Assembly (NCBI RefSeq): GCF_000829825.1
Contig: NZ_JXSL01000016.1
Coordinates: 1 to 40,682 of the forward strand
Source of the DNA: Paramagnetospirillum magnetotacticum MS-1
GTDB taxonomy: Bacteria; Pseudomonadota; Alphaproteobacteria; Rhodospirillales; Magnetospirillaceae
Length of the DNA: 40,682 nucleotides
Reading direction: 5' to 3'
The position numbers and the translations under genes were made by a program. Shown here in pieces: positions 8,153-39,260 of this stretch. Positions within the stretch are counted from its first letter, which is position 1; every line of letters begins with the position of its first letter. Under the pieces are notes generated by a model. The model searched no databases, was not told where the DNA came from, and saw nothing but the letters and a program-made list of their open reading frames with translations.

Positions 8153-9805
8153 TCACCCCGCCCGCAGCCTCTTGATAAAGTCCTTCACCTCGCCGTCGAG
8201 ATGGCTGGCTTCTTCGATCAGGCCGCCGGCTTTTTCCAGCATGTCGTTGGCGACCCTGCTGGACTGGCCGGCCTTGTCGCTGACGCTGGCGATATGTCCG
8301 ACGACCTCGCGGGTGCCGGCGGAGGCCTGCTCGATGCTGCGGGCGATCTCGCCGGTGGCGGCCTGCTGTTCCTCGACGGCCGAGGCAATCACGGTCGAGG
8401 CCTGGCTGATCTCATTGATGGTGCCCAGGATTTCCTTGATGGCGGCCACGGCCTGATGGGTGGCGCTTTGCACCTCTGCGATCTGTTGGCCGATTTCCTC
8501 GGTGGCGCGGCCGGTCTGGTTGGCGAGGTTCTTGACCTCGCTGGCCACCACGGCGAAGCCCTTACCGGCATCGCCGGCCCGCGCCGCCTCGATGGTGGCG
8601 TTCAAGGCCAGCAGGTTGGTCTGGCTGGCGATGTCGTTGATCAAGCTGACCACCTCGCCGATCTTCTGGGCCGAGGTCAGCAGGCTTTCGACGATTTGGG
8701 TGGTGTCTTCCGCCTTGCCCACAGCCGTGCCAGCGACCTGAGCGGCGCGGGAGACATGGCTGGCGATCTCGTGGATGGAGGCGGACAGTTCCTCTGCGGC
8801 GGCGGCCACCGTCTCCACGTTCGAGGACGCTTGTTCCGCCGCCTGCCCCGCCGCGGCGGCATCATCGGATGTGGACCCGGCGGTGAACGACATGATGCGG
8901 GCGCTGGCGTGAATGGTGTTGGAGGCGGTGTTCACATGCTGTGAGAGAGCCCCCATGTGGCCCTCGAACTCTTGCGAAAGAGCCAGCATGGTATTGTGGC
9001 GCTCGGCCTCATTGGCCTTGCGAAGCTCTTCCTGTTGCTGTTTGAGCTCGGCCACCCGGCTGGCGTTCTCGCGGAACACCTCGACGGCATGGGCCATGGC
9101 GCCGATCTCGTCCTTGCGCTCGACGCCATCGATCTGGATGTTCAGATTGCCCTCGGCCAACCGGATCATGGCGTCGCGAAGACGATCCAGCGGACCGATG
9201 ATGCCCCGCGACAGGGTCATGACCAAGCCGACCACCACCACGACGATCAGCAGGCCGAAGACGACCGGACGGCTGGCCGCTGCCGCCAGCCCCTCATCCT
9301 TGGCGGCCAAGGCATCGCGGTAGTCGTTGGCGAGAACGGCCCGCATAGCCGCCAGTTGCTGCTCGGCCTTGGTCGCCGCCGCCGCGAACTTCTGCTCGTC
9401 ATCCACCGACGGGTTTTCCTGCACCTTCTTCACCACAGTCGACATCTCGTCGAGGGCTGCGATCAAGGCGGTCTTAGCCTCGGAGGATGCCCCCTCGATA
9501 CGGCCAGTCCGTTCGCGCACTTCGGCCAATCGGGCATCGCTCAGTGCCTTGAAGCGGGCGGGAAATATCTCGTAGTTCAGGCGGCGGCTGACCAAGACGG
9601 ACAGGTTGGACAGGCCCAGTTCAACCTCCTTGGCCACAATGGTTGCCGCCTGACGCTGGTCGGCGCGAGCGGCGGCGGCAGTGCCGGAACTGAGGCTGAA
9701 AGAGCCGGTGGCGATCACCAGGGCCAGGGCGGCGACGGCGACGGCGCCGATCAGGACCAGGCTGCGTTGGATGCCGATGCGGGGCATGAGGGCGGAGGTC
9801 GTCAT
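8153..9805 (-). CDS. Methyl-accepting chemotaxis protein, 550 aa
   Basis: The start is ATG 9805 with GAGGAAA 7 bp upstream; a GTG at 9820 overlaps the previous stop but has a poorer site. The layout is membrane helix (about 14-35), helical periplasmic sensor region (about 36-180, four-helix-bundle-like), second membrane helix (about 183-202), HAMP (about 203-256) and a cytoplasmic signalling rod. The conserved hairpin tip is clear ([20 protein letters not shown]). No CheR-binding pentapeptide is present at the C-terminus (KRLRAG). The gene is 11 bp behind a PstS-like binding protein, suggesting that the binding protein presents its ligand to this receptor. It passes the signal to CheA. Confidence 0.9.
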
Positions 9806-9816
9806 GGCGGCTTTCC

Positions 9817-10599
9817 TCACTTGAACTTCTTGCGGGCGGCGTCGGTGCGCAGGAACGCGATCAGCTTGGCCGTGTCCGGACCGGGATCGCCCTTGGTCAC
9901 GATCGCCAGCGGCCGGGCGATCTTCTTGGAGCGAATAACCTTGATCTCGATGGGATCACCATCGCGCTTGGCCTCGTCGAAATAGGCCTGGACGAACCCG
10001 GCCGATACCGCACCGATGGCCCCGGCATTTTCCGCCACCATCACCATTTCCTTCTTGGTGGCGTAGACGATCTTGGCCGAGCGGGCGTAATCCACCTTCT
10101 TGCCCATGACCTGCTCCCAGACCACCTCGCGGGTGGCGGATTCGGAGTGACTGGTCACCACCTGGACCTTGCGATCAGGGCCGCCAATGTCCTTCCAGTT
10201 CTTGATCACTCCGGCATAGAGGTCGCGGAGCTGGTCCCAATCCAGTTCCTCGATCGGGTTCTTGGCATTGACGATGGGCGAGATTTCGTCCTCGGCGAGG
10301 ACATGGATCTGGTAGGTGCCGTCTTCCGGCAGTCCCTGGGCCTTGAGGATGCCTTCCAATGGGCTGGAAATGATCGCCGCCGGAACTTCCCCCGCCACCA
10401 GACGCTTTACCCCGTTACCGCTGCCCACACCCTCGACCTTGATATCGAGGCCGGTCGCCTGCTTGATGTCGGCGGCAAGAGGCTCGAGGATACGACTTTG
10501 GACCGTGGTCGATCCAGACAGCGTGAATTCGGCGGCAATTGACTGTCCCGAGAGCATCAGGACCGCCAGCGTCAGAAATACAGGGCGAGTTAGGTGCAT
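9817..10599 (-). CDS. PstS-like periplasmic substrate-binding protein, 260 aa
   Basis: A signal peptide (about residues 1-22, ending SIAA) precedes a phosphate-binding-type domain. Family features are [17 protein letters not shown] at the start, [14 protein letters not shown], and [14 protein letters not shown], which form the oxyanion pocket in PstS proteins. It is shorter than typical PstS and no pst transporter genes are nearby. The immediate partner is a chemoreceptor gene, so a sensory role is likelier than transport. In an arsenic locus the ligand could be phosphate, arsenate or molybdate; the sequence does not decide. Confidence 0.8.
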
Positions 10600-10692: not shown

Positions 10693-11667
10693 TCATCCGC
10701 CAGTTATGTTCATGCCACGAGCAAGGCGGTTGATTTGGACGTCGCCAACAAAACCGTGCCGCTCCGGCTTAGCTGAAATGGCCGAGTCGATGATTCTCTC
10801 GAGATGGTGATCCGACTCGCTGGCGCGCAAGGGAGTGCCGAGGTCAATCGCATCTTCCTGCCCGAGGCAGGTATAGAGCGCCCCCGTGCAGGTCACTCGG
10901 ATGCGGTCGCAACCGTCACAGAAACACGCGCTCATGGGGGTGATGAAGCCGATTCGGCACTGGGTCTCGGCGATGGTGGCATAGCGGGCCGGACCGGCGG
11001 TCTGCCAATCGCAATCCACCAGCGTCCATCTCCGCTCCAGATCGGACCGCACTTGCGATAGCGCCAGATGCCGAGAGGTGGAATCCCCCGCCATGGGCAT
11101 GCGCTCGATCAGGCAGAGATCGAAGCCATGGAGACCGCACCAGGCGACAAGATCATCAAACTCGTGGTCGTTGATCCCCGGCAAGGTCACTGTGTTGATC
11201 CGAACGGCGAGCCCCGCCGCCTTTGCGGCGAAAATTCCCTCCATTACCTGTTCCAAACGACCATGCCGCGTGAGGGAGGTGAAGCGAGTCGGATCAAGGG
11301 TATCGAGGGAAACATTGATGCGCCGCACACCCGCCGTCGCCAGTCCATCGGCATGTTTGGCGAGTTGAGTGCCGTTGGTGGTCAGCGTCACCTCGTCGAG
11401 ACGGCCATCCGCCACCAGGGCCCCCAGCCGGTCGATCAGGCTCATGATGTTGCGCCGGACCAGCGGCTCCCCTCCGGTGAGCCTGATCTTGCGCACGCCT
11501 TTGCGGACAAACGCCTCGCACAGACGGCCAAGTTCCTCCAAGGTCAGCAACTCGGCCCTTGGCTTGAAAGTGACGTCCTCGGCCATGCAATAGACGCATC
11601 TGAGATCGCAGCGATCCGTCACCGAGAGGCGGAGATAGGTTATCTTGCGGCCGAAGCGATCAATCAT
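10693..11667 (-). CDS. moaA: GTP 3',8-cyclase MoaA (molybdenum cofactor synthesis), 324 aa
   Basis: This radical SAM enzyme performs the first step of molybdopterin synthesis, converting GTP to 3',8-cyclo-GTP. The N-terminal cluster motif is CDLRCVYC (CxxxCxxC, about residues 20-27), followed by RLTGGEPL and, in the C-terminal half, the second cluster motif CFCDGCDRIRVTCTGALYTCLG. The C-terminus ends in GG, as in MoaA proteins that need that tail. It is placed directly after the arx operon, separated by a hairpin, which fits supply of cofactor to the molybdenum enzyme encoded upstream. No other moa genes are in the window. Confidence 0.9.
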   Translation of the reverse strand: MIDRFGRKITYLRLSVTDRCDLRCVYCMAEDVTFKPRAELLTLEELGRLCEAFVRKGVRKIRLTGGEPLVRRNIMSLIDRLGALVADGRLDEVTLTTNGTQLAKHADGLATAGVRRINVSLDTLDPTRFTSLTRHGRLEQVMEGIFAAKAAGLAVRINTVTLPGINDHEFDDLVAWCGLHGFDLCLIERMPMAGDSTSRHLALSQVRSDLERRWTLVDCDWQTAGPARYATIAETQCRIGFITPMSACFCDGCDRIRVTCTGALYTCLGQEDAIDLGTPLRASESDHHLERIIDSAISAKPERHGFVGDVQINRLARGMNITGG

Positions 11668-11740: not shown

Positions 11741-12058
11741 TTATTTGAAGCTCCGCTTCAGCGCCTCGCGTTCATTGGCCTGCTTGCGCTTCAGGGCCAT
11801 GCGCTCCTCGTCCTGCTTGTCCTCGAGGACGCGGACCTCCTTGATCTGGCGATCCTCGAGTTCGCGCATGGCCTTCTTGTTCTCGGGGTTGGTCAGCGCC
11901 TGCTCGGCGGGGCTGTAGGGCATGGTGCCCCAATTGCCCACGTCGGTCCCGGCTTCCGCCGGCAGGGCCGGCTTGGGATCGGCGGCCCCGGCGGTGACGG
12001 GAGCCGTCATCGCCAGAATCGCCAGGAGGAGTGCGGCAAAAGTCGCTTTGGTGATCAT
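11741..12058 (-). CDS. Small secreted helical protein in arx operon, 105 aa
   Basis: A Sec signal peptide (about residues 1-25, ending TAGA) is followed by a short Pro-rich linker and a highly charged helix (about 58-105) made of Glu, Lys and Arg with regular spacing. There are no cysteines in the mature part and no heme motif. I recognise no family. It starts 9 bp after the arxC stop, so it is the last gene of the operon. In described arx operons the gene after arxC is, as far as I recall, a TorD-like chaperone (arxD); this protein is not of that kind, being short and exported. Confidence 0.75.
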   Translation of the reverse strand: MITKATFAALLLAILAMTAPVTAGAADPKPALPAEAGTDVGNWGTMPYSPAEQALTNPENKKAMRELEDRQIKEVRVLEDKQDEERMALKRKQANEREALKRSFK

Positions 12059-12067
12059 GGCGCTCTC

Positions 12068-13240
12068 CTACTGCTCGGAGGTTTCGGAGAGGCGCAGCAA
12101 CCAATTACCGGCCCCGTAGAGGACATAGAAGATGCCGAACCCAGCCGGAACCAGCATCCATTCGGTGGCCGACGGCCAGTACTCGGCATAGCCGCCGAAC
12201 GACCCTTTGAACAAGGGCACCACCTGGCCGACGATCAGCAGTTCCAGGCGGGCGAAGAAGATGCCCACGCCGAACAGCAGCGCCGCCAGGGCCTGGAAGG
12301 GGCGATATTGCCGCCGGGATTCCGAGGCCATCAGAAGGGCGGGAAGAACGAAACCCAACCAAATCTCCACATGGAACAGCGGAGAGCGGAGCGCATGCCA
12401 GTGAGCCTCCATCCCTTCGTAATTGCTCCACAGCCCGGTGATGATCTGGCCGAAGCGCATGGCGATGACGGCCAGCAGGGAGACGAAGAACAGCCGGGGT
12501 AGAACGGAAGTGTAGAGCCGCTTCACCTCAGCCTGCTTGTCCTCATGCTCATACAGGCTGGTGATGAACAGGATGAAGGCGGTGGCGGTGGCGAAGCCGG
12601 TGAGGATGAAATACATGGGCATCACCGGGCTGTACCAGGCCGGACGCATGGCCATCATGCCGAACACCAGACCCAGGGTTCCGGGAGCCAGGATGCAGAT
12701 GGTGAACGAGGCGATGGACACGTAATGCGCCCGCTTGGTGTGCCACTCGCCGGTATGCATCAGGTAGAACTTCACGCAGAGCAAGACGAGGTCGATGGAG
12801 TAGAACACGCCCATCCACCACATGGGGGAATGGAACTGCATCCCCATGGGGATCGCCCAAATCATGCGGAAGGGATGACCGATTTCCAGCGCCAGGATGG
12901 AGAAGCCGGCCACCAAGGTGGTGATGGACAGCCACATACACCGCTTGGCGACGGGATAGAACACCTTCAGGCCGAATACGGTATCGAGCGAGGCGATCAC
13001 CGACAGGCCCGACGAGGTCAGCAGGAAGAACAGGTAGAAGGCGATGGGCGCCCCCCAGGCCACGTTGGAGGACGTGTTGAAGGCGGAATGGCCGTTCAAG
13101 ACCAGTTGGAGGAGCACATAAGCAAGCCCGACACCGGCGAGGATGGCGCCCCCCAGCATCATGAGGATGGTGACGCCATCGGGCTTCTTGCCGAAATCGA
13201 TGAGGCCGAGCAGCCCCTGAGAGTTAGGACGGGTTGTCAT
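12068..13240 (-). CDS. arxC: NrfD-type quinone-interacting membrane subunit (ArxC), 390 aa
   Basis: The protein has about ten membrane segments and the pattern of the NrfD/PsrC family, including the conserved EIGHPFRMIWA stretch and SPMWWMGVFYSIDL. Such subunits anchor the catalytic and ferredoxin subunits at the periplasmic face of the inner membrane and exchange electrons with quinone. In an arsenite-oxidising complex electrons would be passed to the quinone pool. It lies 12 bp behind the ferredoxin subunit gene. Without arxA as neighbour it could equally be called PsrC-like. Confidence 0.8.
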   Translation of the reverse strand: MTTRPNSQGLLGLIDFGKKPDGVTILMMLGGAILAGVGLAYVLLQLVLNGHSAFNTSSNVAWGAPIAFYLFFLLTSSGLSVIASLDTVFGLKVFYPVAKRCMWLSITTLVAGFSILALEIGHPFRMIWAIPMGMQFHSPMWWMGVFYSIDLVLLCVKFYLMHTGEWHTKRAHYVSIASFTICILAPGTLGLVFGMMAMRPAWYSPVMPMYFILTGFATATAFILFITSLYEHEDKQAEVKRLYTSVLPRLFFVSLLAVIAMRFGQIITGLWSNYEGMEAHWHALRSPLFHVEIWLGFVLPALLMASESRRQYRPFQALAALLFGVGIFFARLELLIVGQVVPLFKGSFGGYAEYWPSATEWMLVPAGFGIFYVLYGAGNWLLRLSETSEQ

Positions 13241-13252
13241 GACGGGCCTCCC

Positions 13253-14011
13253 TTACGATTTGATGCGCGTGGAGCGGGTTTCAGGGATGGAGGATTGCTC
13301 ACCGGCCAGGTAGTAGACCTGGGGCCGGTTGCCGGTTTCCTCCTTCAGGCGGGTACCCCGCTTCTCGGCGATGAGACGGCGAACCTCGCTGGTGGGCGTG
13401 TCGAGGTCGCCGAAATAGCGGGCCGAGGGCGCGCAGGTGACGACGCAGGCCGGGACGAAATCGCGCAAAGCCGGATTGCTGGGATCGAGATCCACGGTTC
13501 CCGCCGGAGCCTTGGAAACCCGGTGATAGCAGAAGGTGCATTTGGAGACCACGTTGGTGGGCTGGATGCCGACGCCGTGCTTGGGATCGCGCCGCGCCTC
13601 GGGCATCTGCCACGGCGGGTTCCACATCTTGTCGCCGTCGCCTGGGAACACCGAACGGATGTCGGGCTGAACCGGCTGCTTTTCCTCGGCATAGAAGCGC
13701 ACGCCGTAGGGGCAGGCGACCATGCAGTATTTGCAGCCGATGCATTTCTCCCAATCCACCAGGACAAAGCCGTCCTTGTCCTTGAAGGTCGCCCCGGTCG
13801 GGCAGACCTCGCGGCAGGACGGGTTCTCGCAGTGCATGCAGGGACGCGGCAGCCAGCTGAACTTGCCCGAGGGATATTCACCCTCGGCGTAGAACAGGAC
13901 GTCCTGCCAGTTCTCACCGGGCAGCCGGTTATTTTCCACCTGACAGGCGGTGGTGCAGGCTTGGCAGCCGGTGCACTTTTCCAGGTCGATGACCATTCCC
14001 CATCGTGACAT
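13253..14011 (-). CDS. arxB: Four-cluster ferredoxin subunit (ArxB), 252 aa
   Basis: The DmsB/PsrB/ArrB layout is present with four cysteine groups: CTGCQACTTAC near residue 13, CMHCENPSCREVC near 58, CIGCKYCMVAC near 90, and a closing set including CTFC and CVVTC (about 160-195). These bind four [4Fe-4S] clusters that pass electrons between the molybdenum subunit and the NrfD-type subunit. No own Tat signal is present, so it is probably carried out by the Tat signal of ArxA. The gene lies between arxA (29 bp) and arxC (12 bp). Confidence 0.85.
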   Translation of the reverse strand: MSRWGMVIDLEKCTGCQACTTACQVENNRLPGENWQDVLFYAEGEYPSGKFSWLPRPCMHCENPSCREVCPTGATFKDKDGFVLVDWEKCIGCKYCMVACPYGVRFYAEEKQPVQPDIRSVFPGDGDKMWNPPWQMPEARRDPKHGVGIQPTNVVSKCTFCYHRVSKAPAGTVDLDPSNPALRDFVPACVVTCAPSARYFGDLDTPTSEVRRLIAEKRGTRLKEETGNRPQVYYLAGEQSSIPETRSTRIKS

Positions 14012-14040
14012 GACTAATTCTCCTTCTCAGATCCCGTCCA

Positions 14041-16512
14041 TCACGCCTTCTCGACCGTCACCAGCACGCCGTAATTGCTGGTGAGGCCAGAGATGGGGTC
14101 GGAAACATTGGGAATGATCTCGCTGACATTGCCGCTGTTGCGGCTCTTGGCCCACCGGCCGTGGGCCCAATGGCCGAAGCCGAAGGGCAGCACCACTGTG
14201 TCGGGACGGGCACCGGGGAAGTAGCGGGCCTGGGCGGTGATCGAGCCGATATCCGAGCTGATCTTGACCCGATCGCCGTCCTTGATGCCGCGCGCCTGGG
14301 CGGTCTTGGGATTGATCTCCAGGTACATCTGGCCACGGCCGCCCACATTGGGCTGGTAGATGGACACCGCGTTGGGGATGTTGGCGCTGCGCCCCTCGGC
14401 ATGCATGGGGGTCTTGGGCGTCACGAAGAACAGATCGCCCTTGCCGGTATATTTGGGCGCCACCCACTGCGGGAAGCCCACCCGGTCGGCGGCAACGCCG
14501 ACACGTTGCTGGATGAAGTCGGCGTAGTGTTCGAGATACGAGGACTTGAACTCGAACTTGCCGGAATCGGTCTTCAGCAGCTTGGCCTTAACGTCCTCGG
14601 GCGTCATCGGCTTGCGATAGTCCTCGCCATCCCACTGATAGAACTCGCCGTCGATCTGGCGGTAGACATAGGGCTTCTTGTACCAGACGCCCTTTTCGAC
14701 CCAGCTTTCGAAGCTGTTGACGCCGTTGTCGCCGGGGCTGGTCTCGAACCCCTTGGCCAGGGCGCGCAGGATGTTCTCGGTATTGCCGATGGCCTTATAG
14801 TAGTCGCTCATGGGGCCGTTGATGCGCTTGCCCAGTTCGATGAGGACGTCGGTGAAGGCCATGGTGTTGTGGATCGGCTTGACCGCCGGCTGACGGATAT
14901 TGACCATTGGCCAGCCCTGGAAGGGGTAGGTCGGGCAATCGTTCCACCGTTCCAGATAGGTATGATCCGGCAGGATCAGGTCGGCGAACACCGAGGTCTC
15001 ACTCGGGAAGGGCGAGGTATCGACCACGAAGATGTCCTTCAACGCCTCTTCCCAGACCTTGCATTCCGGGCCGCTGAAGATGGGATTGGTCAGCCAGAAG
15101 ACCATGGTGTCCATCTTGTAGGGATTACCCGCCAGATGGTTTTTTGCGACCTCCTGCCACTGGTTGCTGGCCATGGGCAGATAGGCGGTCTTGACCCGGT
15201 CGATGCGCGGCATCTTCTTCGCCGCCGCCGCCTTGGCGATGTCGTCCATGAAGTCTTCGGGCTTCACCGGCAGCTTACCGAACGGCACGCTCATCTGGTT
15301 GCCCAAGCCGCCCTTGGCGTAGAAGGCGCCGACCAGGGCATTCAGACTGTGGATGGCCAGACCATTATAGGTGGCGTTGGTGCAGGTGGTGGCACCACGC
15401 TCGAAGACGGCCATGGCCGGCTTGGTGGTGCCGAATTCCCGGGCCGTGGCGAGGATCAGCTTTTCTGGGATAGTGGTGATCTCCGCCGCCCAGGCCGGCG
15501 TGCGGTCCTTGAGCTCGGCATTCCACCAGGCGATCAGATCCTTGGTCCACTTGTCCTTGAAGCTGGCCGGATCCAGCGTCTCGCCGGTCTTGAACAGATT
15601 CTTGCCGTCGACGAAGTCGCCGACGAACTTCTTGTCCCACAGCCCCTCGGTGAGCAGCACATGGGCAATGGCCAGCGCCAGGGCACCATCGGTGCCGGGC
15701 TTGATCATCAGCAGGTGATCGGCGGCGGCGCCGGTGGTGGTCAGGCGGATATCGACCACCGTGACCTTGGTCTTGGGCGCCTTGGTGCGGATATGGCCCC
15801 AGGTCTGGAGATTGTTGTTCAGCGGCCGGTAGGCTTCGAGGAAGGCGGCGCCGAAGAACAGCAGGTAATTGGCGTTGCGGTAGTCGTAGGAATTATAGGC
15901 GTAATTGCCGTCCAGAGCCGACTTGGCCTTCTTGCTGGCGTCCGAGCATAAGGAGGAGTGGCCAAGGCCCACATTAGGTGAGCCGTACATGGCGGAGAAC
16001 GGCCCCAACTGGCCATCATCGGAATTACCCCAGCCACGGCCCAAGGTGATGCTGAACCGGTGGGCCTCGCCCTTCTCGCGTAGGGTGTTGAGGCGTTTGC
16101 CCAAGGTGTCCAGCGCTTCGTCCCAGGTGATCGGGACAAATTTGGGATCGACGTCACGGCCCTTGGCCGGATTGGTCCGCTTCATGGGCCCGGTGTGGCG
16201 GTCGGGATCGTAGAGCATGTAGACCCCAAGCGGCCCCTTGGGGCACAGCTTGCCGTTGGAGATGGGGTGGTCCAGCGTGCCGGTGATGCCGGTCACCTTG
16301 CCATCCTCGACGCGCACATCGATGCCGCAGCGGGCCGGGCACTGGTGACAGGTGCTCTTCACGATCTTGGTGTCGATGGCGGCGGCGGCATGGGCTTCGT
16401 CCGGCTTGGACATCAGCCCGGTCGCTCCGACACCGACGGCGGCGGTAGCGGCGGCGCCGGCGACGGTGGTGGCTTTGAGAAACTCTCGCCGTGTGGAATC
16501 AAGTGTGCTCAT
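14041..16512 (-). CDS. arxA: Arsenite oxidase catalytic subunit ArxA (molybdopterin, DMSO reductase family), 823 aa
   Basis: A Tat signal (STRREFLK at residues 6-13) is followed by the [4Fe-4S] motif C55-x2-C58-x3-C62 with C90, and the candidate Mo-ligand Cys189 in GHSSLCSDASK. The stretch TLGRGWG (156-162) matches the XGRGWG motif that, as I recall, separates ArxA from the arsenate reductase ArrA. The length fits the Arr/Arx clade. The C-terminal dinucleotide-binding domain is present (MHAEGRSANIPNA; FGFGHWAHGRWAKSRNSGN). The enzyme would oxidise arsenite to arsenate in the periplasm, though this clade can run in reverse in vitro. It overlaps the arxB'-like gene by 14 bp. Alternatives are ArrA or polysulfide/thiosulfate reductase; the divergent arxXSR-type genes and nearby ars genes favour ArxA. 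Confidence 0.82.
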   Translation of the reverse strand: MSTLDSTRREFLKATTVAGAAATAAVGVGATGLMSKPDEAHAAAAIDTKIVKSTCHQCPARCGIDVRVEDGKVTGITGTLDHPISNGKLCPKGPLGVYMLYDPDRHTGPMKRTNPAKGRDVDPKFVPITWDEALDTLGKRLNTLREKGEAHRFSITLGRGWGNSDDGQLGPFSAMYGSPNVGLGHSSLCSDASKKAKSALDGNYAYNSYDYRNANYLLFFGAAFLEAYRPLNNNLQTWGHIRTKAPKTKVTVVDIRLTTTGAAADHLLMIKPGTDGALALAIAHVLLTEGLWDKKFVGDFVDGKNLFKTGETLDPASFKDKWTKDLIAWWNAELKDRTPAWAAEITTIPEKLILATAREFGTTKPAMAVFERGATTCTNATYNGLAIHSLNALVGAFYAKGGLGNQMSVPFGKLPVKPEDFMDDIAKAAAAKKMPRIDRVKTAYLPMASNQWQEVAKNHLAGNPYKMDTMVFWLTNPIFSGPECKVWEEALKDIFVVDTSPFPSETSVFADLILPDHTYLERWNDCPTYPFQGWPMVNIRQPAVKPIHNTMAFTDVLIELGKRINGPMSDYYKAIGNTENILRALAKGFETSPGDNGVNSFESWVEKGVWYKKPYVYRQIDGEFYQWDGEDYRKPMTPEDVKAKLLKTDSGKFEFKSSYLEHYADFIQQRVGVAADRVGFPQWVAPKYTGKGDLFFVTPKTPMHAEGRSANIPNAVSIYQPNVGGRGQMYLEINPKTAQARGIKDGDRVKISSDIGSITAQARYFPGARPDTVVLPFGFGHWAHGRWAKSRNSGNVSEIIPNVSDPISGLTSNYGVLVTVEKA

Positions 16513-17629
16513 GGCACTCCCTCTCTTTTAGGTCACTGGCTTGAAACGAAAACAGGTTGCGCAACATGCCGATGCCGTTGCGGCAGCGCGGGCAAAGGCC
16601 GTCGGCGTCGATGTCGGACATCTGGGCGCCGCATTGGCGGCACAGGCCGATGGAATGGGCGGTAAGAATGGTGCGCTCGGCTCGGATGGCCCGGCCCGCC
16701 GAGCGATCGAAGGACAGCGCCGACCCGGGGCAGGCCGAGACGCACAGGCCGCAGTCGATGCAGGAACGGGGATCGAAGGACAGGCCCTCGGCAGCCTCGC
16801 CCACCCACGACTGCAAGGCCTGGGTCGGGCAATGGGCGGCGCAGGCCCCGCTATTGTTGCAAGCCTCTGAAACACCGAGGGACGGCACCAGCCGGTCGGG
16901 CGACAGCCCGCCATGCATTTCCGACAGGCGGCGCAGCAACGCCACCTGCCGCAGGTGGTTCCGCACGACCGGAGCCGCTTCCACGGGTGTGACCGGCACC
17001 GGAGTTCGGCTCGGAGTGCCGGAGCCCACGGCTCCCAATCGACGGAACAACCCACGGCGGGAGACGCCACCACGCGCCGCACTGTCGTCTCGCAGCGCGG
17101 GTTTCAGGGGGGTGCGCCGCAAGCGGGGAACCAGCGCCTCGGCCAGGCCGATCGCCAGCATGATGTCGCGGGTTTGAACCAGGGCCCGCGCCGCCGGAAT
17201 CGCCTCGCCCTTGCCGACGGAGCATTCGCCGCACCAGCCCCGATCCATGAGGACGACCGAAGCTTCACCGGCGGCAAGGCGCAAGGCCAGAAGATGGGAA
17301 ACCGTCAGACCGCTGAGACAGGGAACCCGAATGGTGCCCGCTTCGATGCTGTTGGGCGGCACCCGCGCGCATTCCACCACCACCCGTCCGTGGCGGGGCG
17401 ACGGGTCGGCGGCTTCGCCGAAGCCTTTGGCTTCGATGGCTCCCACCGGACAGGCCACGGCACAGGAACCACAGCCGACGCAAGTTTCGGAAACCGTGGG
17501 AACGTCGCCCATGGCCTCGATCGCCGCCACCGGACAGCCCTCGGCGCAAGCCACACAGCCGCCACGGCGGCGGAAGGGCTCGCAGGCGGCACCATCCAAA
17601 TGAACGAACTCTGTGGCGACCAACGACAT
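16499..17629 (-). CDS. Polyferredoxin ahead of arxA (ArxB'-like), 376 aa
   Basis: This is the first gene of the arx operon. Cysteine groups are C16/C25-x2-C28-x3-C32; C50-x2-C53-x2-C56-x3-C60 (classical [4Fe-4S]); a middle block with C87, C104, C133 and C136; C257-x5-C263-x3-C267; and C290-x2-C293-x2-C296-x3-C300 (classical). The C-terminus holds a CxxC...CxxC zinc-ribbon-like group (C330, C333, C346, C349). An internal SRRGLFRRL (190-198) recalls the twin-arginine start of NapF/NapG-type proteins, but it is not N-terminal, so the protein is probably cytoplasmic. Described arx operons have a ferredoxin gene arxB' in this place. Its role is unproven; it may act in maturation of ArxA or in electron transfer. 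Confidence 0.7.
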   Translation of the reverse strand: MSLVATEFVHLDGAACEPFRRRGGCVACAEGCPVAAIEAMGDVPTVSETCVGCGSCAVACPVGAIEAKGFGEAADPSPRHGRVVVECARVPPNSIEAGTIRVPCLSGLTVSHLLALRLAAGEASVVLMDRGWCGECSVGKGEAIPAARALVQTRDIMLAIGLAEALVPRLRRTPLKPALRDDSAARGGVSRRGLFRRLGAVGSGTPSRTPVPVTPVEAAPVVRNHLRQVALLRRLSEMHGGLSPDRLVPSLGVSEACNNSGACAAHCPTQALQSWVGEAAEGLSFDPRSCIDCGLCVSACPGSALSFDRSAGRAIRAERTILTAHSIGLCRQCGAQMSDIDADGLCPRCRNGIGMLRNLFSFQASDLKERECHEHT

Positions 17630-17752
17630 TTCCTACCCTTTTGGTTGGGAATCGCCTCATTAAATGTGTGGGCATTCTGGGACTGAATTATTGGAGGCCG
17701 CAATGGAAATGAGCGGTATCGACAAAGAAAAACTTATTGATTACAGTGAGTT

Positions 17753-17768
17753 GTTACCGCGCGGTAAC
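17753..17768. promoter_or_regulatory. Palindromic site 1, GTTACC-GCGC-GGTAAC
   Basis: A perfect 16-bp palindrome lies 124 bp upstream of the arxB'-like start. The arms are identical to those of site 2. A symmetric site fits a dimeric regulator with a C-terminal Fis-type helix-turn-helix, such as the response regulator encoded by the divergent operon. Confidence 0.7.
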
Positions 17769-17834
17769 GCATTCCATGCCATATAGCGCAAAGTTATTTA
17801 ATTGATTTCTGAACTCATCTCCAAAGCGCCTGCC

Positions 17835-17850
17835 GTTACCATTCGGTAAC
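17835..17850. promoter_or_regulatory. Palindromic site 2, GTTACC-ATTC-GGTAAC
   Basis: The same 6-bp arms as site 1 surround a different 4-bp centre, so only the arms are conserved. It lies 77 bp ahead of the chosen arxX start. The pair of matching arms within 100 bp is unlikely to be chance and points to cooperative binding of one regulator controlling both transcripts. Confidence 0.7.
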
Positions 17851-17926
17851 ATGCCAAACATTTACAGAGTTTCGGCCCAATCCGATGCTCTACCTCTCTC
17901 GCGGGGGCAGTGTTAGAGTGCCTGCC

Positions 17927-18820
17927 ATGCAGATGTTCAAAGGAAGCTGGTCGGCATCTTGGTTCACCGTTCGAGGATGGCTCGGCGGTGTTGTGCTGCT
18001 GGTTTTGGCCCTGTCCATGCCGCTGCCGGCCCAGGCCGCCGAGGGGCCGGTCCGTATCGCGCTGACCGCGGCTGCCGTCCGGGACGAGCTTCCCTTCTAT
18101 GATCGCTGGGCCGCCTATCTGGGGCGCAAACTCGGCCGCCCGGTGGAATTCGTCCAGCGGCGCAGTTATCGCGACATCATCGAGATGCTGCGGACCGGCG
18201 AGTTGGATTTCTCCTGGGTCTGCAGCTACTCCTTTGTCCAGGCGCTGGACGCGGGACTGGTGGATCTGGTGGCCACACCGGTCTTTCGCGGCAAGCCGCT
18301 CTACCAGTCCTACATCATCGTGCCGCGTGACAGCCCAACCACAGACCTGATGCAGTTGGAAGGCAAGTCCTTCGCCTATACCGACCCGGATTCCAACACC
18401 GGCTACATCGTGCCCCGCGCCATGCTGCGCGATTCGGGGCACAACCCCGAGCGCTTCTTCCGAACCATCTTCTTCACCTGGGATCATGGTCAGGCAATCG
18501 AGGCGGTGGCCGACAAGGTGGCGGACGGGGCCGCCGTGGATTCCTATGTCTGGGAGTATCTGGCGGCCCAGCGCCCCCGCCTCGCCGAGCGGACCAAGAT
18601 CATCCAGCGCTCGGAGGAGTTCAGCTTTCCCCCCATGGTGGCGCGGCGCGGCATCGATCCCGATCTGCGCAGGCGCTTTGCCGACGCCATCCTCAGCATG
18701 GCCGCCGATGCCGAGGGACGGCGGTTGCTGGGCGAGATGATGCTGGATGGCTTCGTGGCCCTGCCTGCCTCCAGCTACGACAAGGTGCGGGCCTTGCCGA
18801 CGGCGCGTCCGTTACGATGA
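17927..18820 (+). CDS. arxX: PhnD-type periplasmic binding protein, probable arsenite sensor (ArxX), 297 aa
   Basis: The start is set at ATG 17927, giving a Sec signal peptide that ends AQA before AEGPVRIAL; ATG 17885 in frame would add 14 residues with no ribosome site. The mature protein has the PhnD/AioX-type fold signs: YDRWAAYLGRKLGRPVEFVQ, LDFSWVCSYSF, TDPDSNTGYIVPRAML. Its only cysteine in the whole protein is Cys99, in the position where AioX-type arsenite sensors use a Cys as I recall. Its TGA overlaps the kinase ATG (18817-18820), so sensor and kinase are coupled. It probably binds arsenite and touches the kinase's periplasmic domain. A phosphonate ligand is the main alternative, but no transporter genes accompany it. 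Confidence 0.78.
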   Translation: MQMFKGSWSASWFTVRGWLGGVVLLVLALSMPLPAQAAEGPVRIALTAAAVRDELPFYDRWAAYLGRKLGRPVEFVQRRSYRDIIEMLRTGELDFSWVCSYSFVQALDAGLVDLVATPVFRGKPLYQSYIIVPRDSPTTDLMQLEGKSFAYTDPDSNTGYIVPRAMLRDSGHNPERFFRTIFFTWDHGQAIEAVADKVADGAAVDSYVWEYLAAQRPRLAERTKIIQRSEEFSFPPMVARRGIDPDLRRRFADAILSMAADAEGRRLLGEMMLDGFVALPASSYDKVRALPTARPLR

Positions 18821-20283
18821 CCATCTTCCGGCCAATGGCCTGGAGTCTGTCCATCAAGCTGCCGGTCATCGTCTGTCTGGTGGTGGTGGGCGTCGCCGCC
18901 GTGATCGGCGCTGGCGTGGTCGGCAAGGACCGCATCGAACTCCGCGAAGCCCTGTCGGACAATGCGCGGCTGCTGGCCCGCTGGGTCGCGGCCAGCGCCG
19001 CCGAACCCATGCTGCGCGACGACAGTTGGTCGGTATATCGCATCCTGCGGCAGGTCACCTTCGAGGGCGGCGGTGGCGAGACGGAAGTCGTCACCGCCAT
19101 GGTGCTGGACCGCGAAGGCAAGGTCGCCGCCCATCTTCAGCCGGGCGAGAACCCCATCGGGCTGCCGCTGGTCGTCCATGGCGACAGCGAGGCGAAGCTG
19201 CTGGCCGCCGCCCTTGGCGCCCATGCGCCCATGGTGCATGAGGACGAGGACGGAAAATTCGTCGAAGGAGTCGCCCCGGTCTTCGCTGGCGGCAAATATG
19301 TGGGGGTGGTCCGGGTTCGCCTGTCCACCCGGCAATTGACGGAGGCGACACGGGAAGCGGCCCTGGTGGTTCTCGCCCTCGCCCTGGGCCTTGCCGCGCT
19401 GGGCAGTCTCGTCGGCATCAGGCTGTCGCTGGGCGCGGTCCGTCCGTTGCGGCGGCTGGCCGATGCCATGGCCTTGCTGGGTCAGGGAGACCACGCCCCA
19501 GTGAGCATCAAGGGCGGTGACGAGATCGCCCAACTGGGCGAGTCCTTCAACCAGATGGCCGCCGAGGTGGCGGAAAAGCAGCGGCTGGAACGGGAACTGG
19601 CGCAAAGCGAGAAGTCCGCCGCCCTCGGCCGCATCGCCGCCGGTGTCGCCCACGAGGTCAACAATCCCCTGGCCGGCATCCTCAACTGCCTGTCCACCAT
19701 CAAGGACCACCCGGAACAGCCCGATCTGGTGACGCGCTATCTGCCGCCCATCGAGAAAGGACTGCATCGCATCCGCGCCATAGTCCAGGATCTGCTGGTG
19801 GAGCAGCGGGCCGAGCACGCCTCGGAACTGTGCGGTCCGGAATGCCTGGACGAACTGCGCGATTTGATCATTGCCGAGATTGAGGGCGCCGGCATCACCC
19901 TGGACTGGGACAATCGCGTCCATGCTCCGGTCCAGGTCAACCGGCCCCGCCTACAACAGGCCGTGCTCAATCTGCTCAAGAATGCCGCCCAGGCCATGCC
20001 CGACGGCGGCTGCCTGAAGTTCTCGGCCAGCCTTGACGGCGGCCTTTTGCGCATGGAGATCGAGGACACCGGCATCGGCATCGCCGAAGAGGATCTGCGG
20101 CACATCTTCGATCCGTTCTTCTCGTCAAAAAAAAGCGGCACCGGGCTTGGCCTATGGATCACCCTGCGGCTGCTGAATTCCATGGGCGGAGGCGTCGAGG
20201 TCACCAGCGAACCGGGCAAGGGAAGCATATTCAGCCTCCATGTTCCCGTGGAAGGAGAAGGCCATGGACCGGCGCAGCAATGA
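18817..20283 (+). CDS. arxS: Sensor histidine kinase (ArxS), 488 aa
   Basis: Domain order is membrane helix (about 14-36), periplasmic domain (37-178), second membrane helix (about 181-203), HAMP (204-256), HisKA with the phospho-acceptor His279 in AHEVNNPL, and a HATPase domain with N-box NLLKNAAQAM (385-394), DTGIGI (417-422) and GTGLGL (441-446). The AHEVNNP box is of the NtrB-like type. It overlaps the binding-protein gene upstream and the response regulator gene downstream, so all three are one translational unit. It should phosphorylate the adjacent regulator when the binding protein is loaded. Confidence 0.88.
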   Translation: MTIFRPMAWSLSIKLPVIVCLVVVGVAAVIGAGVVGKDRIELREALSDNARLLARWVAASAAEPMLRDDSWSVYRILRQVTFEGGGGETEVVTAMVLDREGKVAAHLQPGENPIGLPLVVHGDSEAKLLAAALGAHAPMVHEDEDGKFVEGVAPVFAGGKYVGVVRVRLSTRQLTEATREAALVVLALALGLAALGSLVGIRLSLGAVRPLRRLADAMALLGQGDHAPVSIKGGDEIAQLGESFNQMAAEVAEKQRLERELAQSEKSAALGRIAAGVAHEVNNPLAGILNCLSTIKDHPEQPDLVTRYLPPIEKGLHRIRAIVQDLLVEQRAEHASELCGPECLDELRDLIIAEIEGAGITLDWDNRVHAPVQVNRPRLQQAVLNLLKNAAQAMPDGGCLKFSASLDGGLLRMEIEDTGIGIAEEDLRHIFDPFFSSKKSGTGLGLWITLRLLNSMGGGVEVTSEPGKGSIFSLHVPVEGEGHGPAQQ

Positions 20284-21541
20284 CCGCGACCGCATGCAGG
20301 TACTGGTCGTCGAGGATGACGAGATCATGCTGCTGTCCCTGGTTGATCGGCTCAAACTGGAGGGGATCGAGGCCATCGGCGCGCCGACTCTGAAGGAAGC
20401 CCGCTGGTGGCTGGGAACCGGCGGCATGGATCTGGTGGTCTGCGACATCCGCCTGCCAGACGGCCAGGGCAGTGATCTGTTCCTGGAAATCTCCAAGCTC
20501 CAGCCCGGCCTTCCCTTCATCCTGATGACCGCCTTCGGCTCGGTGGCCGACGCGGTGGCGCTGGTCAAGGCCGGGGCAGTGGACTACCTGGAAAAGCCCT
20601 TCGACCTGCCCGCCTTCATTCAACTGGTCCGCCGCACCCTGGCCACCCTGGCCGATATGCGTCTGGCCGATGGCCCGGCCATGGAGCGCTTTCGCCTGGG
20701 CTCCGGCCTGCTGGGCCAGGACCCGGCCATCCTGCGTCTGGAACGCACCATCCACCGTATCCGCAACCTGGACACGCCGGTGCTGATCTCGGGCGAGCGC
20801 GGCACCGGCAAGCGGCAACTGGCCGCTCTGATCCACCACAACAGCTCCCGCGCCCAGGGACCGTTCGTGAAGCTCAACTGCGCGCCCTGGGAGAACGATG
20901 GCGAGGTGGAGGTGGATTTCGCCGCCGCCATCGAACGGGCGGCGGGGGGAACCCTGTTCCTGGACGAGGTGGCGGAACTGCCCGAGCGCTTGCAGGGGCG
21001 TCTGATCCAGCTGATCAGCCATCCCCACCCCAATATGCGGGTGATCGCGGCCCGCCGGGCCGAAGGGGGCGCCGAAGAGGAAGGCGCCGTCCGCCCCGAT
21101 CTGCTGTGGCGGCTTTCGGTCATCCATATCCGGGTGCCGCCCTTGCGTGAACGCCCGGAAGACATCGTCCGCATCGCCCGGCTGTTCCTGGCCCAGGCGG
21201 CCAGTGTTGCGGGCAAGCGGGTCACCGGCTTCTCGCCCGCCGCCGAGGATTCCTTGCGGATACAGAAGCTGCCCGGCAACGGCCGCGAACTGCGCCGTCT
21301 GGTCGAGCGGGCGGTGGCGCTGGCCGATGGACCGCAGGTGGAGCTCCACCACATCGATTCCGAACCGGAAAAGCCGATCGAGACTGTCGATCTGAAGACA
21401 GCGGTCGAGGATGCCGAGCGCGCCGCCATCCTCTCCGCCCTGGCCCGCGCCGACGGCGCCATCGGCAAGGCCGCCGATTTTCTCGGCATCTCGCGCAAGA
21501 ACCTGTGGGAGAAGATGCGCCGCTACGATATCGAGCGATAG
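20264..21541 (+). CDS. arxR: AAA+ response regulator lacking the GAFTGA loop (ArxR), 425 aa
   Basis: The start is ATG 20264, preceded by AGGAGAAGG; it lies inside the kinase gene. The receiver domain has acidic residues D18/D19, phospho-acceptor Asp61, Thr89 and Lys111. The AAA+ part has Walker A GERGTGKR (177-184), Walker B LFLDE (231-235) and the PGNGREL segment (337-343). Between Walker A and Walker B the usual LFGHEKGAFTGA loop is missing: the sequence goes from NCAPW straight to an acidic stretch and IERAAGGT. A Fis-type helix-turn-helix ends the protein (about 385-420). Without GAFTGA it should not activate sigma-54, so it probably works with sigma-70, like some NtrC/HupR-type proteins. 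Confidence 0.88.
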   Translation: MDRRSNDRDRMQVLVVEDDEIMLLSLVDRLKLEGIEAIGAPTLKEARWWLGTGGMDLVVCDIRLPDGQGSDLFLEISKLQPGLPFILMTAFGSVADAVALVKAGAVDYLEKPFDLPAFIQLVRRTLATLADMRLADGPAMERFRLGSGLLGQDPAILRLERTIHRIRNLDTPVLISGERGTGKRQLAALIHHNSSRAQGPFVKLNCAPWENDGEVEVDFAAAIERAAGGTLFLDEVAELPERLQGRLIQLISHPHPNMRVIAARRAEGGAEEEGAVRPDLLWRLSVIHIRVPPLRERPEDIVRIARLFLAQAASVAGKRVTGFSPAAEDSLRIQKLPGNGRELRRLVERAVALADGPQVELHHIDSEPEKPIETVDLKTAVEDAERAAILSALARADGAIGKAADFLGISRKNLWEKMRRYDIER

Positions 21542-24133: not shown

Positions 24134-25321
24134 TCAGACCAATCCGACAGCACCCAAGGCGTAGAGCACGGCAAGACCGGTCGCGGCCTGAAGGGCGGCC
24201 CCGCCGACCATGGTCGCCAGAGCGGAGGATTCCGCGTCTTTCACCAGGGCGTCGCTGCGAACCAGCCAGTAGAAACTGTCAGTAGGCAGGATGGCGAAGG
24301 ACCCCAGGCAGATGGCGAAGACCGCCGCTTCCGGCGAGATCCCCGACCCGACCACCAGTGGCGCCAGGATCGGGGTGACGGTGGCGAAGGTGGCTGTCGC
24401 CGCGCCGTAGACCAGCTTGAAGATCATGGTGGCGATGAACAGCACCAGCAGCACGCCGATGCTGGCGATCATGGGCTGCAACATCTGCTTCAGGGGCAAA
24501 GCATTGCTCAGCATGGAGCCGAAGGCACTGGCCGCGCCGATGACCAGCAACAGCCCAGCGGTCCGGCGCATGGCGGCATCCAGGCACTCCCGGCGTCCCT
24601 CCGGCCTAGTCTCCATCAGCGCCACCGCCGCCGCGATGATCAGCGCCCCCTTGGGGCGGGTGAGGAAGCCGACCACCGGCAAAGCCGAGAAATCGCCAAC
24701 GGACCCGACCAGCAGCAGCCCCCCAAGGACCGCAAGCGGCGCCAGCGGGCAGATGGAGGACCAGGATAAGCCGCCCCCCACCATGCCGTCGGCTTCCAGA
24801 GGCTTCGCCGTCCGATAGCGGGCCCAGACCTCCCCCGCCAACCAGACCGGCCCGATCAGCAGCAATCCCACCACGAACAGGGATGAACTGTTCACCCCCA
24901 GTCCGGTGGCGACGATCAACGGCCCGGCGGGAAACAGCAGGCGATAGCCCGCCTGGCTGCCGAACGCCACCGAGAGCTTGCGGCGCTCCGCCACCGACGC
25001 CAGGGTGGCATAGGCGGTGTCGGGGCAAACCATCCCGGCGGCGGTAATAGGGGAGATGGTGGCGGCGATACGGTCGGCGCCGTTCAACTGCTGCCGCGCC
25101 ATGCAGGCGGCCAGCACGAAGGACGGCAGCAGGATCAGGGCGAAATCCCCGAGAATCCGGCCAAACCCACTGCTGAAGGCACGAACGACCTCCACCCCGT
25201 TGAGGCCGCTCGCCAGCCCGATCACCAGGGCCAGCAGAACCAGCCAAACCGGTTGGGGAAGATTGAGGCCGCTCCACCGGGGGGCGGCCTGGGATGGGTT
25301 ACCTGCGGTCGAGGATGTCAT
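24134..25321 (-). CDS. GntP-like permease under a candidate ArsR operator, 395 aa
   Basis: A protein of about 11 membrane segments with the GntP/ion-transporter superfamily feel: ISPITAAGMVCPDTAYATLASVA near the first third, and a matching second half (ATMIFKLVYGAATATFATVTPILAPLVVGSG). The start is ATG 25321 with GGAG 8 bp upstream; the ATG at 25342 falls inside the operator and has no ribosome site. GntP proteins carry gluconate and other organic acids. Here the gene lies between arsM and an ECF/MFS unit, and its upstream region repeats the arsR operator almost exactly, so its substrate may be arsenic related. That is inference. Confidence 0.7.
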   Translation of the reverse strand: MTSSTAGNPSQAAPRWSGLNLPQPVWLVLLALVIGLASGLNGVEVVRAFSSGFGRILGDFALILLPSFVLAACMARQQLNGADRIAATISPITAAGMVCPDTAYATLASVAERRKLSVAFGSQAGYRLLFPAGPLIVATGLGVNSSSLFVVGLLLIGPVWLAGEVWARYRTAKPLEADGMVGGGLSWSSICPLAPLAVLGGLLLVGSVGDFSALPVVGFLTRPKGALIIAAAVALMETRPEGRRECLDAAMRRTAGLLLVIGAASAFGSMLSNALPLKQMLQPMIASIGVLLVLFIATMIFKLVYGAATATFATVTPILAPLVVGSGISPEAAVFAICLGSFAILPTDSFYWLVRSDALVKDAESSALATMVGGAALQAATGLAVLYALGAVGLV

Positions 25322-25339
25322 GACAGGTCTCCAGTAACT

Positions 25340-25358
25340 CATAATTCTAGAAATATGG
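25340..25358 (-). promoter_or_regulatory. Candidate ArsR operator upstream of the GntP-like permease
   Basis: CATAATTCTAGAAATATGG is identical at 17 of 19 positions to the sequence covering the arsR start at 26500-26518. The core TTCTAGAA is a palindrome and the CATA/TATG ends are inverted repeats. It stands in the 71-bp gap between arsM and the permease gene. Confidence 0.7.
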
Positions 25359-25392
25359 AAACAATGGACGCGCCTTCGCCCTCAGCCACCCG

Positions 25393-26190
25393 TCAAACCA
25401 GGGGCCGACGGGCCTCGATGGTGGCCGAGGCGACGTAATCCTCGATTCCCAGGCCCGGCGCCCAGTTGGCGATCAGCTCGCGGCTTTCCGGCTTGGGCTC
25501 GATCCGGATGTCGGTGAATCCGGCCTGCTCCAACCAGTTGGACAGCTCCGCCACCGTGGCGGCGCCGGCGGCGCATCCGGTCAGCAATTCCTTCATGGCG
25601 GCCAGTTCCGGTGGAAGGGGGCGCAGCATGACCACGTCGGAGATGGCCACCCGGCCGCCGGGCTTCAGCACCCGGAAGGCATCGTTCAGGACGGCGGGCT
25701 TGTCCGGCGACAGGTTGATGACGCAGTTGGAAATGACCACGTCGGCGGTGTTGTCGGCGATGGGCAGGTGTTCGATCTCGCCCAGGCGAAACTCCACATT
25801 GGCCAACCCCAGCTTGGCGGCATTGGCCCGCGCCTTGGCCAGCATCTCGTGGGTCATGTCGACGCCGATCACCCGCCCGCTCTCGCCCACCTGCCGAACG
25901 GCAAGGAAGGCATCGAAGCCAGCGCCGCTGCCCAGATCGACCACCACCTCGCCCGGCCGCATGGCGGCGATGGCCTGGGGATTGCCGCAGCCGAGCCCCA
26001 GATTGGCGCCGTCCCCCGCAGCGGCAAGGTCGGACTCGTCATAGCCCATGCGCTTGGCCAGGGTGTCGGCATCGGGCGCCGGGCCGCAGCAGGAAGACGG
26101 AACTGCTGGCGAGCAGCAGGACGAGGATGCTCCGGCGGCAATGGCGCCATAGCGGCTTCGCACCAAGTCACGAATCTGATCGGGGGTCAT
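25393..26190 (-). CDS. arsM: Arsenite S-adenosylmethionine methyltransferase, 265 aa
   Basis: The enzyme methylates As(III) using SAM in the cytoplasm. The SAM-binding motif VVDLGSGAGFDAFLA (83-97) and the following VIGVDMTHEML are clear. The ArsM cysteines are present: C68 in LGCGNP, C156 in SNCVINLSPDK and C206 in LTGCAAGA, which together bind arsenite; two extra pairs occur near the N-terminus (C25/C26, C34/C35). The start ATG has GAGGAG 8 bp upstream and is 12 bp behind arsR, so the two are one operon. Products (methylarsenicals) could leave by the ArsP-type permease encoded at 29.3 kb. Confidence 0.93.
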   Translation of the reverse strand: MTPDQIRDLVRSRYGAIAAGASSSCCSPAVPSSCCGPAPDADTLAKRMGYDESDLAAAGDGANLGLGCGNPQAIAAMRPGEVVVDLGSGAGFDAFLAVRQVGESGRVIGVDMTHEMLAKARANAAKLGLANVEFRLGEIEHLPIADNTADVVISNCVINLSPDKPAVLNDAFRVLKPGGRVAISDVVMLRPLPPELAAMKELLTGCAAGAATVAELSNWLEQAGFTDIRIEPKPESRELIANWAPGLGIEDYVASATIEARRPLV

Positions 26191-26202
26191 GGTTCAAACT
26201 CC

Positions 26203-28806: not shown

Positions 28807-28925
28807 CCGGTCCACCAGAGTTTGGGATACGGAAAGTGTATCAAGCCAGCCTCACCATTTCAGCCACATCATGAGCATCCCACGGAACTGCCATGCGTCA
28901 ACGCCCGCGCTTATTCCTTAGTAAG

Positions 28926-36891: not shown

Positions 36892-36901
36892 GACATTGTC
36901 C

Positions 36902-37270: not shown

Positions 37271-37281
37271 GATGGTCTCTC

Positions 37282-37716: not shown

Positions 37717-37721
37717 CGTGT

Positions 37722-39238: not shown

Positions 39239-39260
39239 GGATATTGCCTTGTCGCGTCGG

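Follow-up and report, generated by a model that had tools for sequence, protein, structure and literature searches.

A gene cluster at positions 11741-21541 of contig C16 of Paramagnetospirillum magnetotacticum MS-1 raises the question of whether it encodes an arsenite oxidase of the Arx type under its own divergent sensor module and, if so, how that module could switch the oxidase operon on. We analysed the entire contig, 40,682 bases and hereafter called the window, together with the MS-1 genome (4,523,935 bases in 36 contigs); an overlap of the contig ends, as a sign of circularity, was looked for and none was seen. ArxX, ArxS and ArxR of M. magnetotacticum have been named already (PMC5908839), so that the locus as such was known before; nothing beyond that paper was found in the open-licence literature on arxA and Magnetospirillum or on arsenite oxidation and M. 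magnetotacticum. The cluster is a genuine Arx locus of a kind already described, also in this species, with a regulator and accessory genes that depart from the usual set, and the interpretation given in a preliminary description of this DNA is, as a whole, partly supported.

The probable oxidase operon and its catalytic subunit

The arrangement proposed in the preliminary description, an Arx-type operon facing a divergent three-gene sensor system, was borne out by open frames, curated families and a tree. Every named frame is open at its place, with arxB2, arxA, arxB and arxC on the minus strand divergent from arxX, arxS and arxR on the plus strand, and the best curated family for each of the seven proteins was matched beyond chance, at E values from 8e-15 (ArxB2) to 8e-141 (ArxA). 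The minus-strand run continues behind arxC with genes for a 105-residue exported protein, MoaA, a PstS-like protein and a chemoreceptor; it contains two overlaps and otherwise gaps of 9 to 93 bases, which makes a single operon from arxB2 to the chemoreceptor gene (mcp) likely. The gene for the 105-residue protein, which the preliminary description had not mentioned, accounts for the start of the span at 11741. The arxA-arxB order is kept in 18 other Arx loci, in 17 of which arxC comes next.

The subunits themselves, as the preliminary description had listed them, were all confirmed. The 823-residue molybdopterin catalytic subunit ArxA (14041-16512, minus strand) carries a Tat export motif (TRREFL), a four-cysteine [4Fe-4S] motif and TLGRGWG at residues 156-162 (GRGWG from 158), and its Cys189 aligns with a cysteine of the ArrA structure 6cz7, which we take to be the molybdenum ligand. 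The leading polyferredoxin gene, arxB2 or arxB' (16499-17629, minus strand), encodes Fer4 domains and 24 cysteines; 16 of 18 further Arx loci had a homolog, the exceptions being L045 and the cut locus L088 (loci and genomes are cited by L and G numbers), and in L085 it stands behind arxC. ArxB (13253-14011, minus strand) has 16 cysteines, enough for four [4Fe-4S] clusters, and shares 63-80% identity with its counterparts in 17 other Arx loci, a 24-residue match in L033 excluded. The NrfD-type membrane subunit ArxC (12068-13240, minus strand; PF03916) is 65-69% identical to its counterparts in the five nearest relatives and 33-48% identical to those in 12 others.

By motif, gene order and tree, the 823-residue protein is an ArxA. 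The XGRGWG motif, which the preliminary description had cited as the mark of ArxA, was carried by 18 of the 19 Arx-like sequences, and the one exception, L088, is a fragment that lacks the N-terminus; the motif did not occur in the ArrA-like L047 and L048, in L039 or in 12 outgroup open reading frames, some of which are perhaps in wrong frames. The GRGWG of ArxA stands where L047 and L048 read RGRY, in keeping with the (R/K)GRY motif of ArrA. A tree of 28 rows placed the protein inside an Arx clade of 18 with support 100/100, and holding it with the ArrA-like pair (L047, L048) was rejected (approximately unbiased test, p-AU 0.002). The placement that the preliminary description had proposed to examine thus came out with Arx and not with ArrA-like or PsrA/PhsA-like proteins, in a tree whose named Arx rows were Sulfuricella, Cereibacter ORIO and six metagenome-assembled genomes (MAGs), with no MLHE-1 or PHS-1 ArxA and no named TtrA; L088, as a fragment, and five of the 12 outgroup frames were left out, as was L082, which by length and content is the same contig as L035.

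We also scored the protein against the curated models of related families. It stayed below the cut-off for ArrA (470.8 bits against 1600), PhsA/PsrA (PhsA, 292.8 of 694), TtrA (78.6 against 1750) and AioA (32.2 against 359), and the ArrA and PhsA/PsrA identities were rejected by the tree as well. The ArrA model gave 431-476 bits on other Arx proteins (L031, L037, L038), 1110 bits on L047, which is below its cut-off, and 1742 bits on L048, which passes.

The sensor module, its predicted operators and the regulator

ArxX (17885-18820, plus strand; true start possibly Met15 at 17927) is a Phosphonate-bd/PhnD-type protein predicted to be a periplasmic arsenite-binding sensor, with AioX (196.6 bits) and ArrX (146.7 bits) as its nearest solved structures. 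Its pocket consists of Y95, C113, Y140, S170, T172, H201 and D219, so that six of the seven AioX pocket residues listed in PMC5908839 (Tyr88, Cys106, Tyr131, Ser161, Ser163, His192 and Asp210) are identical; the seventh, Ser163, is replaced by Thr, as it is in Sulfuricella, G276 and G327. The only cysteine of ArxX, Cys113, corresponds to the arsenite-linking cysteine of AioX. The overlapping arxS gene (18817-20283, plus strand) encodes a sensor histidine kinase with sCache, HAMP, HisKA and HATPase domains and a presumed phospho-acceptor at His279.

In PMC5908839 the X, S and R proteins of M. magnetotacticum cluster with the Aio proteins of alphaproteobacteria, and our trees of 17 X, 17 S and 16 R sequences bore this out only partly. 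The window X protein leaned to Sulfuricella, G276 and G327 (87/95; held with the alphaproteobacteria, p-AU 0.064), S fell with the alphaproteobacteria at weak support (62/94; held with non-alphaproteobacterial Arx, p 0.46), and R leaned to the alphaproteobacteria (89/89), its placement with non-alphaproteobacterial Arx being rejected (p 0.0008). A smaller, superseded run of 11 sequences with untrimmed frames placed X with Sulfuricella, G276 and G327 (93/93), left S and R unplaced and gave longer window branches. The three window rows are long branches, so their placements are tentative.

The regulator ArxR (20240-21541, plus strand; true start possibly Met19 at 20294) has the receiver, AAA+ and Fis-type helix-turn-helix domains and retains Asp69 of the receiver as well as Walker A (from 185) and Walker B (from 240), but the GAFTGA loop that contacts sigma-54 is not present. 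The binding protein, kinase and AAA+ regulator of the preliminary description are therefore all there, with a regulator that is not of the standard kind. We compared 16 regulators, leaving out those of Phyllobacterium (annotated in two pieces) and Methylorubrum (without annotation): GAFTGA or GAFSGA occurred in 11, and the five without it were that of the window and four from Rhodobacterales, where they sit beside annotated oxidase genes. A single origin of all GAFTGA-less regulators was not rejected (p-AU 0.09), and the best tree needs at least two changes.

We then scored -24/-12 promoter sites in the spacer before the oxidase genes on their strand (in Azoarcus KH32C, before its other molybdoenzyme), with a generic consensus, hand-picked start codons for four loci and a guessed start for G873. 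No such site was found in the 255-bp spacer before arxB2. At a threshold of at least 9 of 12 matches, 10 of the 11 loci that have the loop gave a site, G327 being the exception, and none of the five that lack it did so (Fisher p 0.0014); at 10 or more matches the counts were 8 of 11 and none of five (p 0.026). These values are a guide only, since the loci are related, the consensus is generic, the threshold was set post hoc and the starts were chosen. RpoN is encoded in the MS-1 genome, and the spacer holds only weak candidates for a sigma-70 promoter. NtrC-type proteins without GAFTGA are reported to act at sigma-70 promoters (PMC10274813), and the joint loss of the loop and the -24/-12 site suggests that ArxR most likely works on a promoter of the sigma-70 type. 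We found no paper combining GAFTGA with arxR, arxX or AioR. Several arsenite regulators in which loop and site are missing together would provide an example of an entire circuit exchanging its sigma factor.

The same spacer contains two predicted ArxR operators, GTTACCGCGCGGTAAC (17753-17768) and GTTACCATTCGGTAAC (17835-17850), both perfect GTTACC-N4-GGTAAC palindromes. With one mismatch allowed, the only two occurrences of this pattern anywhere in the genome are those in the arx spacer; the reversed control pattern, likewise a palindrome, matched nine times on each strand. In Agrobacterium GW4 the footprinted AioR site reads GTTCGGATTTCCGAAC, and the consensus is GTTN10AAC (PMC5335332); the two palindromes of the window are of this kind and lie near the oxidase operon. 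Among 16 loci with an XSR module, eight have GTTAC-type sites when one mismatch is tolerated, as has Hydrogenophaga when two are. GTTCGG-type sites were found in five loci at zero mismatches and in NT-26 at two, and neither type in G873; the two types never occurred in the same locus, and none of five spacers from loci lacking ArxX had either. The recognition helix reads RTTLWEKM in each of the six regulators that go with GTTCGG-type sites, and RKN, RKT or RKS at that position in the ten others (RKN in the window). The site type therefore tracks the recognition helix, and the window palindromes fit the helix of ArxR itself. As of 2019, arxXSR had yet to be shown to take part in the expression of arxAB (PMC6549141), and exact, genome-unique palindromes in a cultured strain make this control directly testable.

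The absent arxD and the weighing of the readings

The set and order of genes match those of arxB'ABC and arxXSR, as the preliminary description had stated, except that arxD is absent. A TorD profile built from three annotated proteins matched 12 of 12 Arx loci (L037, L038, L043-L046 and L083-L088), of which the 11 present in the tree form a 100/100 clade that excludes the window. L033 was left out of the count, as its ArxB match ends after 24 residues and its contig ends 1.4 kb further on. A single clade of the arxD-less loci was compatible with the data (p-AU 0.46), and two TorD-like genes lie elsewhere in the MS-1 genome. Three Arx genomes without arxD, from alpha- and deltaproteobacteria, are reported in PMC6549141, so its absence does not disqualify ArxA.

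In the place of arxD lies the gene for the 105-residue exported protein (11741-12058, minus strand), which has a charged helix. Homologs directly follow arxC in L031, L032, L035 and L036; L034 has a fragment, and the 12 TorD-carrying loci gave no credible match (best E 0.15, antisense in L037). Common to the five intact members of the family are an N-terminus resembling a signal peptide, an invariant Asn-Trp-Gly and the charged helix. The window protein matched no Pfam family, two of the five members matched Metal_resist weakly (best E 0.008), and a solved relative was not found at E up to 1. Being exported, the protein cannot simply substitute for a cytoplasmic chaperone, and our guess is that it is a periplasmic partner of ArxABC. 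An arxD-less branch with its own small protein raises the question of how an exported molybdoenzyme matures without the usual chaperone.

We consider it quite probable that the cluster is an operon for an Arx-type arsenite oxidase, equipped with a sensor module of its own and working in the following way. ArxA would fold in the cytoplasm, be exported by the Tat system and oxidise arsenite in the periplasm, with electrons going by way of ArxB to ArxC and the quinone pool and most likely on to nitrate (by Nap) or low oxygen. The genome encodes NapA (1555 bits, cut-off 931); no AioA exceeded the cut-off (best 65.8 of 359 bits) and no PufL was matched, although no control genome passed for AioA and none of 14 passed for PufL either. 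Of the couplings put forward in the preliminary description, nitrate is therefore plausible and a microaerobic one possible, and the phototrophic one is unsupported. ArxX would bind arsenite through Cys113 and signal by way of ArxS to ArxR, which, once phosphorylated and bound to the two GTTACC-N4-GGTAAC operators, would switch on arxB2ABC and the genes behind it, most likely from a sigma-70-type promoter.

A wider reading, which we regard as a serious possibility somewhat short of probable, is that the arsenite switch moved from sigma-54 to the housekeeping polymerase, losing the loop and the -24/-12 site while the operators stayed; that a similar, perhaps independent, change took place in Rhodobacterales; and that, in the Arx branch of the window, a TorD-like chaperone gene was lost and a small, exported, Arx-specific partner took its place in the operon.

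Several observations weigh against the preferred explanation, an Arx oxidase under its own sensor. The signalling residues Val56-Phe57-Leu58 of AioX are Ala-Ala-Val in ArxX, with Ala57 found in none of 10 other X proteins and Ala56 or Val58 in some. ArxS (25-32%) and ArxR (35-40%) are unusually divergent from all proteins compared. TorD was not found by the profile in the window, L031, L032, L034, L035 or L036, and none of the named rows of the ArxA tree was a biochemically tested ArxA. In the window alone, a tolerance of two mismatches gives an expectation of 0.36 palindrome matches, and two of 100 shuffles reach two. The comparison of promoter and GAFTGA draws on 16 related loci, with a threshold set after a first look, and ArxA-type enzymes may run in reverse.

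Three other readings were weighed. ArxA and ArrA are sister families that can be reversible, and ArxA might work in the cell as a respiratory arsenate reductase; ArrA is its nearest curated family and best solved structure (423 bits), and the AioX pocket residues are kept in ArrX too (PMC5908839). We think this quite unlikely, because ArxA scores far under the ArrA cut-off that L048 clears, has XGRGWG instead of GRY, is kept apart from the ArrA-like pair by the tree test, and stands with an NrfD subunit and a polyferredoxin as in Arx. A second reading takes the locus as decaying or cryptic, an operon no longer expressed or matured, to which the altered ArxX loop, the long X, S and R branches and the missing GAFTGA loop, -24/-12 site and TorD gene would all be suited. 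Decay is nonetheless unlikely, as the frames from mcp through arxR are open across 13 kb, the Walker, receiver, kinase and pocket residues and two perfect palindromes are kept, regulators without GAFTGA recur beside annotated oxidase genes in Rhodobacterales, and TorD-like genes are at hand elsewhere in the genome. Finally, the substrate is unreadable from sequence alone and the sensor loop of ArxX differs from that of AioX, so that another oxyanion (antimonite or selenite) might be the main substrate and arsenite a secondary one; with ACR3, ArsA, ArsM and ArsC-like genes on the same contig and the pocket of the arsenite-binding AioX retained in ArxX, this is very improbable.

Related loci and the surrounding arsenic genes

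Arsenite oxidation under a dedicated sensor, the reading we prefer, has its closest described parallels in the arxB2ABCD-arxXSR loci of Alkalilimnicola ehrlichii MLHE-1 and Ectothiorhodospira (PMC6549141, PMC6683785), which share the gene set, order, divergent sensor module, XGRGWG motif and Tat signal. Unlike these, the window has the small exported protein in place of arxD, moaA and the PstS-like and chemoreceptor genes behind, and an ArxR without GAFTGA. The Arx and ArxXSR proteins of PMC5908839 come from the same species as the window, and the available text of that paper makes no mention of GAFTGA, the operators or the small protein in M. magnetotacticum. The AioXSR-AioBA systems of Agrobacterium GW4 and NT-26 (PMC5335332, PMC6011840, PMC7533571) are alike in the sensor triad and the GTTN10AAC kind of site, and GW4 in having a chemoreceptor within its arsenic island; they differ in the oxidase and the half-site (GTTCGG in GW4, with two positions different in the NT-26 site), and NT-26 also in a regulator with GAFTGA and a sigma-54 promoter. 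The NtrC proteins of Rhodobacter capsulatus and Caulobacter (PMC10274813) resemble ArxR in lacking GAFTGA and in their reported action at sigma-70 promoters, but serve nitrogen control instead of the arsenite control of the window.

Arx loci were sparsely distributed among the genomes searched. At 1e-100, ArxA matched four of 385 genomes of the class, the window's own counted, and five of 369 in the class of G197; at 1e-60, eight of 398 phylum genomes matched, of which G000, G197, G276 and G327 were Arx-like. A scan of genome contigs gave six further Arx loci, in MAGs, at 68-70% ArxA identity (L031-L036), and seven of 72,556 plasmid records matched ArxA, two of them Arx (62% and 60%). The MAG loci are like the window in that TorD was not found in the five usable ones and the small exported protein lies 3' of arxC in four (a fragment in L034). 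They are unlike it in that no ArxX match was found in at least 7 kb upstream of arx in L033-L036; the flanks of L031 and L032 are too short. Within the genus, one of the 16 other genomes (G006) has an ArxA ortholog, at 61% and on another branch of the tree, so that the window and G006 probably gained arx separately.

In G006 (L043) the XSR module is nearest to that of KH32C (S 57%, R 68%) and ArxA is near Cereibacter, a pairing from which sensor modules seem to have been swapped between enzymes. Azoarcus KH32C (L039:4358-12600) and G327 (L046:1439-4123) carry another molybdoenzyme, 27-28% identical to ArxA and forming a sister pair in the ArxA tree (rows L039 and L030). In KH32C it lies beside ars genes and diverges from an XSR module that has a palindrome of the GTTACG type; the pair is possibly an uncharacterised arsenic enzyme.

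Downstream of the 105-residue protein gene, moaA (10693-11667, minus strand; TIGR02666, 346 bits, cut-off 284) is a second copy of the GTP 3',8-cyclase gene of molybdenum cofactor synthesis, the other being at G000:C30; moaA also follows arxD in Sulfuricella. Behind it lie genes for a PstS-like periplasmic oxyanion-binding protein (9817-10599, minus strand; PF12849), related to phosphate-binding proteins in the PDB, and for a methyl-accepting chemotaxis protein (8153-9820, minus strand; PF00015, PF00672) with two hydrophobic helices and no cysteine, the two genes overlapping by four bases. In the 18 other Arx loci, whose flanks vary in length, no match to either above 45 bits was among those listed, and moaA occurred in Sulfuricella only. 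A homolog of the PstS-like gene was not found at 1e-20 in 15 of the 16 other genomes of the genus, so the gene probably arrived with the arsenic island in which the presumed operon lies. In Agrobacterium GW4 an island mcp under AioR mediates arsenite chemotaxis (PMC5335332, PMC7533571). Given the lack of cysteine and the overlap, it is an attractive guess that the window chemoreceptor senses arsenate or phosphate through its PstS-like partner, and the two proteins (8153-10599) are possibly a chemotaxis pair for arsenate/phosphate or for arsenite.

To the right of arxR the window encodes an AhpD-like protein, a major facilitator superfamily transporter, an extracytoplasmic function sigma factor, two ArsR-type regulators, an ArsP-family permease and an ArsE-like protein. 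Genes for ArsR, ArsM (345 bits, cut-off 263) and an ArsQ-like permease (393 bits, cut-off 480) stand in a row at 24134-26502 on the minus strand, possibly serving arsenic methylation with organoarsenical export. A short ModE-like DNA-binding protein (26637-27038, plus strand; 82 bits, cut-off 98.5) is encoded within the island, and a small multihaem cytochrome c (27964-28815, minus strand) lies between a TauE-type permease and an ArsR gene. An efflux set of arsA (770 bits, cut-off 650), acr3 (384 bits, cut-off 283) and two ArsC-like genes under the cut-off occupies 35161-39830 on the minus strand. A phage tail-tip gene of the TipJ/lambda tail I type (4141-6636, plus strand) is found to their left, which suggests that the island may border a prophage or lie within one.

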